From NCBI RefSeq assembly GCF_900113695.1, contig NZ_FOQH01000001.1, forward strand, positions 62,001 to 126,000: DNA of 64,000 nt, written 5' to 3'. The position numbers and the translations under genes are program-made. The notes below the pieces were generated by a model that worked only from the letters and a program-made list of their open reading frames with translations, did not search any database and was not told the DNA's origin. Shown here piece by piece: positions 14,956 through 57,583 of this stretch. Positions within the stretch are counted from its first letter, which is position 1. Each line of letters starts with the position of its first letter. Source of the DNA: Albimonas pacifica (GTDB lineage: Bacteria > Pseudomonadota > Alphaproteobacteria > Rhodobacterales > Rhodobacteraceae).

Positions 14956-15231
14956 GCAGGCGCCCTGCGGGCGGGCCTGGCTGCGTCGCGCGGCCTGGAG
15001 GGGAGCGCAGGGCGGGAGAGGGGGGAGCCTCCGGCGGGCTCCTGACTCGCCCAAGAACAGGCCCCGCGCCTGTCCTCCGGACCCGTCCATCGCGTCCGAT
15101 GCCTGAGCTGCTCGCCCGCCCCGGTCAAGGACAAGCCCTCCTTCGGAGGGTCGCGTGCCGCGATCCTTGACCGGGGCGGGCGGGCAGCTCCGATCGGCAT
15201 CCGCGACGGACGGCTCCGGAGAACAGGCGCT
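14956..15231 (+). repeat. long palindromic intergenic repeat, copy 1 (full length)
   Basis: 276-bp unit of a three-member family in this window. The left part (14956-15066) is shared with copy 3. The palindromic part (15067-15231) folds as outer arms 15067-15100/15197-15231, a 27-bp inner stem 15105-15131/15164-15190 with one G-T pair, and a 32-base loop holding a hairpin CCCTCC-TTC-GGAGGG (15136-15150). It lies between hyuB and the MarC gene, both on plus. No protein-coding signature; apparent small ORFs here recur only because the DNA repeats. Confidence 0.9.
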
Positions 15232-46358: not shown

Positions 46359-46547
46359 AGCGCCTGTTCTCCGGAGCCGTCTCTCGCTGATGCCGATCAG
46401 AGCGACTCGGCCGGAGGGGTCAAGGATCGCGCAGCGACCCCCGAAGGGGGCTTGTCCTTGACCCCTCCGGCCGAGTCGCTCAGGCATCTTCAGCGAGAGA
46501 CGGATCCGGAGGACAGGCGCGCCCCCTGTTCTTGGGTGAGTCGGGAG
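46359..46547 (-). repeat. long palindromic intergenic repeat, copy 2 (minus orientation)
   Basis: 189-bp copy lying between the convergent mprF and SDR genes. Inner stem 46400-46426/46455-46481 is a perfect 27-bp pair; the 28-base loop holds CCCCC-GAA-GGGGG (46438-46450). Outer arms 46359-46398 and 46483-46520 pair with few mismatches. Beyond the palindrome only the TTCTTGGGTGAGTC segment (46529-46542) of the longer left flank seen in copies 1 and 3 is kept, so this copy is shorter. Confidence 0.9.
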
Positions 46548-57309: not shown

Positions 57310-57583
57310 GCAGGCGCCCTGCGGGCGGGCCTGGCGGCGTCTCTCGCCTGGCGGGGGCGGGCGGGATGGGAGAGGTCGGGAGCCTCCGGCGGGCTCCTGA
57401 CTCACCCAAGAACAAGCCCCGCGCCTGTCCTCCGGCGCCGTCTCTCGCCGATGGATGCCTGAGCGACTCGCCCCGGCCGGTCAAGGACAAGCCGGCTTCG
57501 CCGGTCGCTGCGCGATCCTTGACCGGCCGGGGCGAGTCGCTCTTTCCGGCATCCGCGAGAGACGGCTCCGGAGAACAGGCGCT
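57310..57583 (+). repeat. long palindromic intergenic repeat, copy 3 (full length)
   Basis: 274-bp unit matching copy 1 from its first GCAGGCGCCCTGCGGGC to its last GAACAGGCGCT. Inner stem 57461-57487/57516-57542 is a perfect 27-bp pair; the 28-base loop contains CCGGC-TTC-GCCGG (57492-57504). Outer arms 57421-57459 and 57544-57583. It lies between two minus-strand genes, downstream of rlmJ and upstream of the flavoprotein gene. Confidence 0.9.

Follow-up and report, generated by a model that had tools for sequence, protein, structure and literature searches.

The long palindromes of this region of the marine bacterium Albimonas pacifica are interpreted here, with a probability of about one half, as belonging to a widespread family of folded single-stranded DNA (ssDNA) signals, likely single-strand initiation sites, that has been amplified on this chromosome. 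The defining part would be a three-way-junction hairpin (P1, TCAAGG[A/C] / [T/G]CCTTGA, with an unpaired CAAG and the hairpins P2 and P3) carried on a longer stem. The family link and the place of the family in ssDNA replicons are well supported, and initiation, the reading of choice, is the best-supported function that the element may have. The fold, the copy number, the persistence and turnover of copies, the location in mobile elements and the strand bias are observed, and initiation activity, a host factor and the chromosomal role are inferred. Since the folded tip is found once per phage or small plasmid, where complementary copying would start, the palindromes look like multiplied replication signals. 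This connects high-copy chromosomal palindromes, functionally a long-standing puzzle, with a defined structural signal of phages and plasmids, and it yields strand-specific predictions.

Structure of the Palindromes

Three copies of the palindrome are present in the window (the whole stretch of 64,000 nucleotides that was analysed), with the layout that a sequence-only reading had given them. The features are listed below; the boundaries of the three main hairpins are those of the covariance model (R1).

14956..14981, + strand: copy 1, upstream module GCAGGCGCCCTGCGGGCGGGCCTGGC, at its fixed distance (about -108)
15022..15061, + strand: copy 1, GGAGCC..GGCTCC hairpin and leader ACTCGCCCAAGAACAGG
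15064..15231, + strand: copy 1, main long hairpin, a type II element (R1, 163.3 bits; 25/26 Watson-Crick pairs)
15105..15131, + strand: copy 1, 5' arm of the inner stem with the hypervariable block, read from the sequence
15132..15163, + strand: copy 1, three-way-junction tip with CAAG, P2 (CCCTCC/GGAGGG) and P3 (TCGC/GCGA), conserved across taxa
15164..15190, + strand: copy 1, 3' arm of the inner stem, read from the sequence
46359..46522, - strand: copy 2, main long hairpin (R1, 191.5 bits; fold z -14.3; 26/26 pairs)
46455..46481, - strand: copy 2, 5' arm of the inner stem
46400..46426, - strand: copy 2, 3' arm of the inner stem
57419..57583, + strand: copy 3, main long hairpin (R1, 169.3 bits; 26/26 pairs)
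57461..57487, + strand: copy 3, 5' arm of the inner stem
57516..57542, + strand: copy 3, 3' arm of the inner stem

The 27-nt arms differ among copies at exactly the positions reported earlier (5, 6, 11 and 14-18), with a matching base in the opposite arm every time, and a T8-G pair in copy 1 is indeed the sole imperfection.

The element is about 165 nt long and is here called type II. Its outer stem, GCGCCTGTYCTCCGG/CCGGAGAACAGGCGC, includes a C-A mismatch that is conserved. Further parts are a second stem with a 3-nt bulge on the 5' side, a 5-nt internal loop on the 3' side, and the 27-nt inner stem that contains the hypervariable block. The tip consists of CAAG, hairpin P2 (CC..GG) and hairpin P3 (TCGC..GCGA), and it folds as a three-way junction, TCAAGG[A/C]-CAAG-P2-P3-[T/G]CCTTGA. 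The loop had been described as carrying a single hairpin that changes while staying paired; such change is seen in P2, but the loop is a junction with two hairpins. The conserved unit is also larger than was first seen. The main hairpin is accompanied by a leader, ACTCACCCAAGAACARG, by a small GC hairpin and by an upstream module, GCAGGCGCCCTGCGGGCGGGC, which lies at about -108 in 87/100 copies of the genome that contains the window (G000).

Pairing and Covariation

Copy 2 folds with -146.7 kcal/mol compared to -82.4 ± 4.5 kcal/mol for shuffled sequences (z -14.3). Across 31 copies, 99.0% of the paired cells are paired (91.7% in shuffles), double changes occur at 20 pairs, and pairing drops to 37-44% when the alignment is slid by 1-3 columns. 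Covariation above controls had been predicted and is strong in these 31 copies, with a score of 0.169 vs 0.042 in shuffles, a value that 0/500 shuffles reach. The inner stems of 128 copies have a mean of 25.38 Watson-Crick pairs out of 26. At 14 sites common to G000 and a congener (G001), 69 stem positions carry double changes that compensate each other, against 23 with some other change, an unusually clean natural example of how stems at one locus can be rewritten while pairing is kept.

Paired changes might also arise without selection, if template switching at a hairpin or cruciform copied one arm to the other and gene conversion spread the variants. Many G-C to C-G flips do occur in blocks, G-T intermediates are almost absent, and the copies evolve in concert. 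However, the outer-stem bulges, the 5-nt internal loop and the C-A mismatch survive where arm copying would erase them, and the tip is conserved across phyla. Template switching is possible but on balance doubtful as an explanation, and it can coexist with an initiation signal.

Copies in Albimonas

A pattern for the 3' arm matches 180-199 sites in G000 and 204 in G001; it is at background level in a second congener (G002) and 58 other genomes. Type II elements also occur in contigs of Albimonas sp. CAU 1670 (185 and 176 bits), and with the covariance model full-length, divergent relatives are detected in further genera of the family (G022, G020 and G079). The G022 relatives (L046-L058) are palindromes of 175-180 nt that score nearly equally on both strands and have an insert, AAAATNGC..GCGATTT, in the tip.

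The copies sampled number 103 in 1.16 Mb of G000, 28 in 0.8 Mb of G001 and 0 in 0.4 Mb of G002. Many are intergenic, as had been predicted, and 128/131 are full length, with hardly any truncated. Copy placement shows no consistent or strong bias with gene orientation, which was therefore rejected as its driver. About 20 sites could be compared between G000 and G001: 15-16 are occupied in both, with matching orientation, and the remainder are empty. G002 has no copy at any of its 10 comparable sites. Orthologous sites thus show the presence and absence typical of MITEs, both in G002 and, for some sites, between G000 and G001. Copies at shared sites (80.9% identity) are no more alike than random cross-species pairs (80.5%), which indicates homogenisation or replacement of sequences at persisting sites; within-species pairs have 84.4 and 81.8% identity. 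The intergenic flanks are too diverged for defining the ends of the element, and no parent element was met.

The empty sites (10/10 in G002, some between G000 and G001) and the high copy number in two of the three Albimonas genomes would suit a MITE- or REP-like non-autonomous transposon whose transposase (REP/RAYT or IS200-like) recognises the hairpin, with the likeness to an origin reflecting a shared ssDNA-hairpin design. The strand bias described below is also compatible with IS200-type insertion, and two IS200-like genes lie just downstream of copies of a shorter form (type I) in G017. This origin is nonetheless unlikely: no Y1 transposase was found in G000, G001, G002, G006, G020 or G022, there are almost no truncated copies, G000 and G001 have most comparable sites in common, and no coding counterpart sharing these ends was seen. 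A RAYT or IS200 partner was rejected, being absent in Albimonas, and the G017 case looks like an IS200 beside type I. A reverse transcriptase partner (RVT_1) was likewise rejected, since copy number is uncorrelated with it.

Type I and the Tip in Other Bacteria

Type I consists of a hairpin A, a linker YSAGYGTR (which we take to resemble the ssoA CS-6 box TAGCG(A/T)) and a hairpin B carrying the same tip. It is found across the Rhodobacterales in single to multiple copies, with 41 in G017 and 24 in G006, often near gene starts or ends. In several genera (L069, L073, L079, L083, L086) it immediately precedes a gene for a GMC oxidoreductase (choline-dehydrogenase-like). Some G017 copies (L095, L105, L113, L120) lie inside a longer pair of inverted arms, GCTCCCGCxCGTCG / CGACGTGCGGGAGC, so that the whole multi-hairpin unit measures about 350 nt. 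At two other G017 loci (L253, L256) a type I copy has a decayed IS200-like TnpA gene (Y1_Tnp) downstream of it, at a distance of about 100 bp, and the DNA between copy and gene is near-identical at the two.

The strict tip pattern has been detected in Micromonospora, Streptomyces, Bradyrhizobium, Rhodoplanes, Burkholderiales, Roseomonas and a Chloroflexi MAG. Among 27 distinct cores from outside the Rhodobacterales, both P2 and P3 form in 22, where shuffles give 2.0. The top P1 pair, left free by the search pattern, matches in 27/27. Beyond the family the strict pattern is rare: a class-wide search of about 380 such genomes detected it in none. No description of the CAAG three-way-junction fold was found in a literature search.

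Phages and Plasmids

Phage, rolling-circle and conjugative replicons pass through ssDNA and need complementary-strand initiation. Seven viral contigs that are inovirus-like by Zot carry the element. In six of them (L385, L389, L412, L415, L418, L420) it lies between the secretin and the G2P-type Rep, always opposite to the genes, and its complement is therefore on the virion strand. This corresponds to the gIV-IG-gII interval, where the minus-strand origin of M13 is located. Since the inovirus virion strand is the coding strand, the folding strand would be the complement of the strand on which the palindromes were first read. A tip-like hairpin was also seen in another viral contig (L413, 3797-3836), near a reverse transcriptase gene (phrog_1423).

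The element is opposite to rep in pZMO1A (Rep_1, PF01446) and pAK51 as well, and opposite to Rep in L419 (Rep_trans). Replicons with an ssDNA stage thus carry non-coding hairpins in fixed orientation to Rep, as is characteristic of ssi and sso sites; this covers the six G2P inoviruses, L419, pZMO1A and pAK51. Many enterobacterial plasmids of 1.2-3.5 kb carry the element, as does pBBR1, which gives this common vector a candidate ssDNA signal. A 2292-bp RepL/MobV plasmid of P. putida (L422) has two inverted copies in non-coding DNA (1690-2292 and 1-200) beside mobV, a region that includes TTCGCCACGTGGCAGG, common to pZMO1A, pAK51 and others.

Rhizobial plasmids (pSymA, pAt and those of Shinella and Mesorhizobium) have one copy, in a four-helix version, after DUF736 and near WGR, HU or traG genes. 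In a Phaeobacter plasmid the copy is placed after ssb. The tips of these rhizobial and Phaeobacter plasmids are divergent (R2 E about 1e-5 to 4e-3), and the conjugative-plasmid copies lie in apparent leading regions. In L423, L424, L426 and L427 (about 2390-2555) the rhizobial version has an extra AATTTTC..GAAAATC stem and a conserved place after DUF736. None of the three Albimonas genomes (G000, G001, G002) yielded a resident G2P-type Rep, so that no resident ssDNA donor is evident in them.

Strand Bias and the Nature of the Folded Molecule

Strand bias was assessed from gene-balanced third-position skew in draft contigs with home-made gene calls, GC skew serving as a proxy. The strand as read is on the G-rich strand for 66/101 copies in G000 (p 0.003) and 19/27 in G001, samples that have some sites in common; in the pooled set the fraction rises from 68% at a skew >0.01 to 81% at >0.04. 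The bias is also seen at the level of clusters (rho 0.37, p 0.005), and gene orientation is not the explanation. For type I, 35/45 loci show it after gene balancing (p 0.0002), and 29/36 where both strands were usable. These were preferred to the raw 8-kb GC skew (48/52), which was set aside because third-position skew depends on gene strand. The G-rich strand is usually the leading strand; if that applies here, complementary-strand initiation at the element would synthesise the leading strand.

Among 3328 stem pairs in 128 copies, the strand as read has 46 A-C/C-A and 3 G-T/T-G pairs; once the two positions with most departures are set aside, the counts are 25 and 3. Part of the A-C excess represents variants spread among copies, so the asymmetry is taken as moderate evidence. 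A structured RNA would tolerate G-U above A-C on the read strand; the opposite strand shows that tolerance instead. For type II the reverse strand is also more stable, by 5.9 kcal/mol with RNA parameters and 4.3 with DNA parameters, so that relaxed wobble and higher stability coincide on the complementary strand; type I has no clear strand preference in folding energy.

Strong covariation, the conserved bulges and junction, and an intergenic location, with type I frequently close to gene starts or ends, could also indicate small RNAs, 3'-UTR elements or terminators under RNA selection. With 3 G-T vs 46 A-C pairs, inconsistent orientation to genes and a replication-strand bias, this is quite improbable. 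Neither is there an Rfam match: at the gathering threshold only tRNAs were matched in the window and in relatives, in keeping with the failure of the sequence-only reading to recognise the element. That reading had left RNA, structured DNA and a copying mechanism open. The data bear it out in part and favour DNA, because G-T pairs are few relative to A-C, the opposite strand is more stable (type II) and the copies follow the replication strand.

Possible Role

In inoviruses, rolling-circle or mobilizable plasmids and conjugative leading regions, the most likely function of the signal is to allow initiation of the complementary strand by host enzymes. Candidate activities are single-strand initiation (a minus-strand origin) or a Frpo-like single-strand promoter; no promoter-like or primase motif was identified, -10/-35 boxes having been looked for by eye. 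Albimonas would have multiplied a longer version to about 200 copies, which stay at their sites and are rewritten by exchange among copies, the hairpin being kept through paired changes. On the chromosome the element may have spread as a non-autonomous (selfish) ssDNA element or may be used for re-priming. A bolder proposal, speculative and rather unlikely, is that an unrecognised ssDNA initiation signal, with a CAAG junction and a conserved host replication factor, crosses phyla and serves inoviruses, rolling-circle plasmids and conjugative plasmids, and that chromosomes with up to 200 copies use them as dispersed re-priming sites for rebuilding the leading strand.

Comparison with Known Systems

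The M13-type intergenic region has two hairpins in the same gene interval (secretin, hairpins, G2P Rep) and a folded complement on the virion strand. The Albimonas elements differ in being chromosomal repeats rather than phage, and the likeness rests on gene position and hairpins; the hairpins of M13 are not known to form a CAAG three-way junction.

The Frpo/ssi promoters of conjugative plasmids (PMC11541004) are likewise ssDNA hairpins between small genes of an apparent leading region, and the element is found near ssb, DUF736, HU or WGR genes. Frpo has been described with -10/-35-like boxes (PMC11541004), whereas the element is a GC-rich fold in which none are apparent by eye, and it also occurs in rolling-circle plasmids, inoviruses and chromosomes. 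The sso of rolling-circle plasmids and ICEBs1 (PMC4595007) are also non-coding stem-loops of rolling-circle replicons; the element, whose activity is putative, has another fold and other hosts.

REP/BIME sequences with RAYT (PMC3733652), named at first as an analogue, are likewise palindromes present in many copies between genes, with a proposed action as ssDNA. The closest relatives found are in phages and plasmids that pass through ssDNA, and not among REP/BIME or known RNA families. GTAG/CGTC REPs are 20-40 nt long with 5-13-bp stems and GTAG/CGTC tags (PMC3733652); the element, at about 165 nt with a three-way junction, misfits in size and stem and was rejected as a member, and no RAYT gene (Y1_Tnp, PF01797) is present in G000 or G001. 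Palindromic MITEs of the YPAL, ERIC, Correia and RIME type (PMC2229807) are also intergenic, about 100-170 bp long, with lineage-specific bursts of copies. Set apart from these by description rather than by sequence, the element has a stem that is rewritten at orthologous sites with pairing kept, and it has relatives in phages and plasmids.
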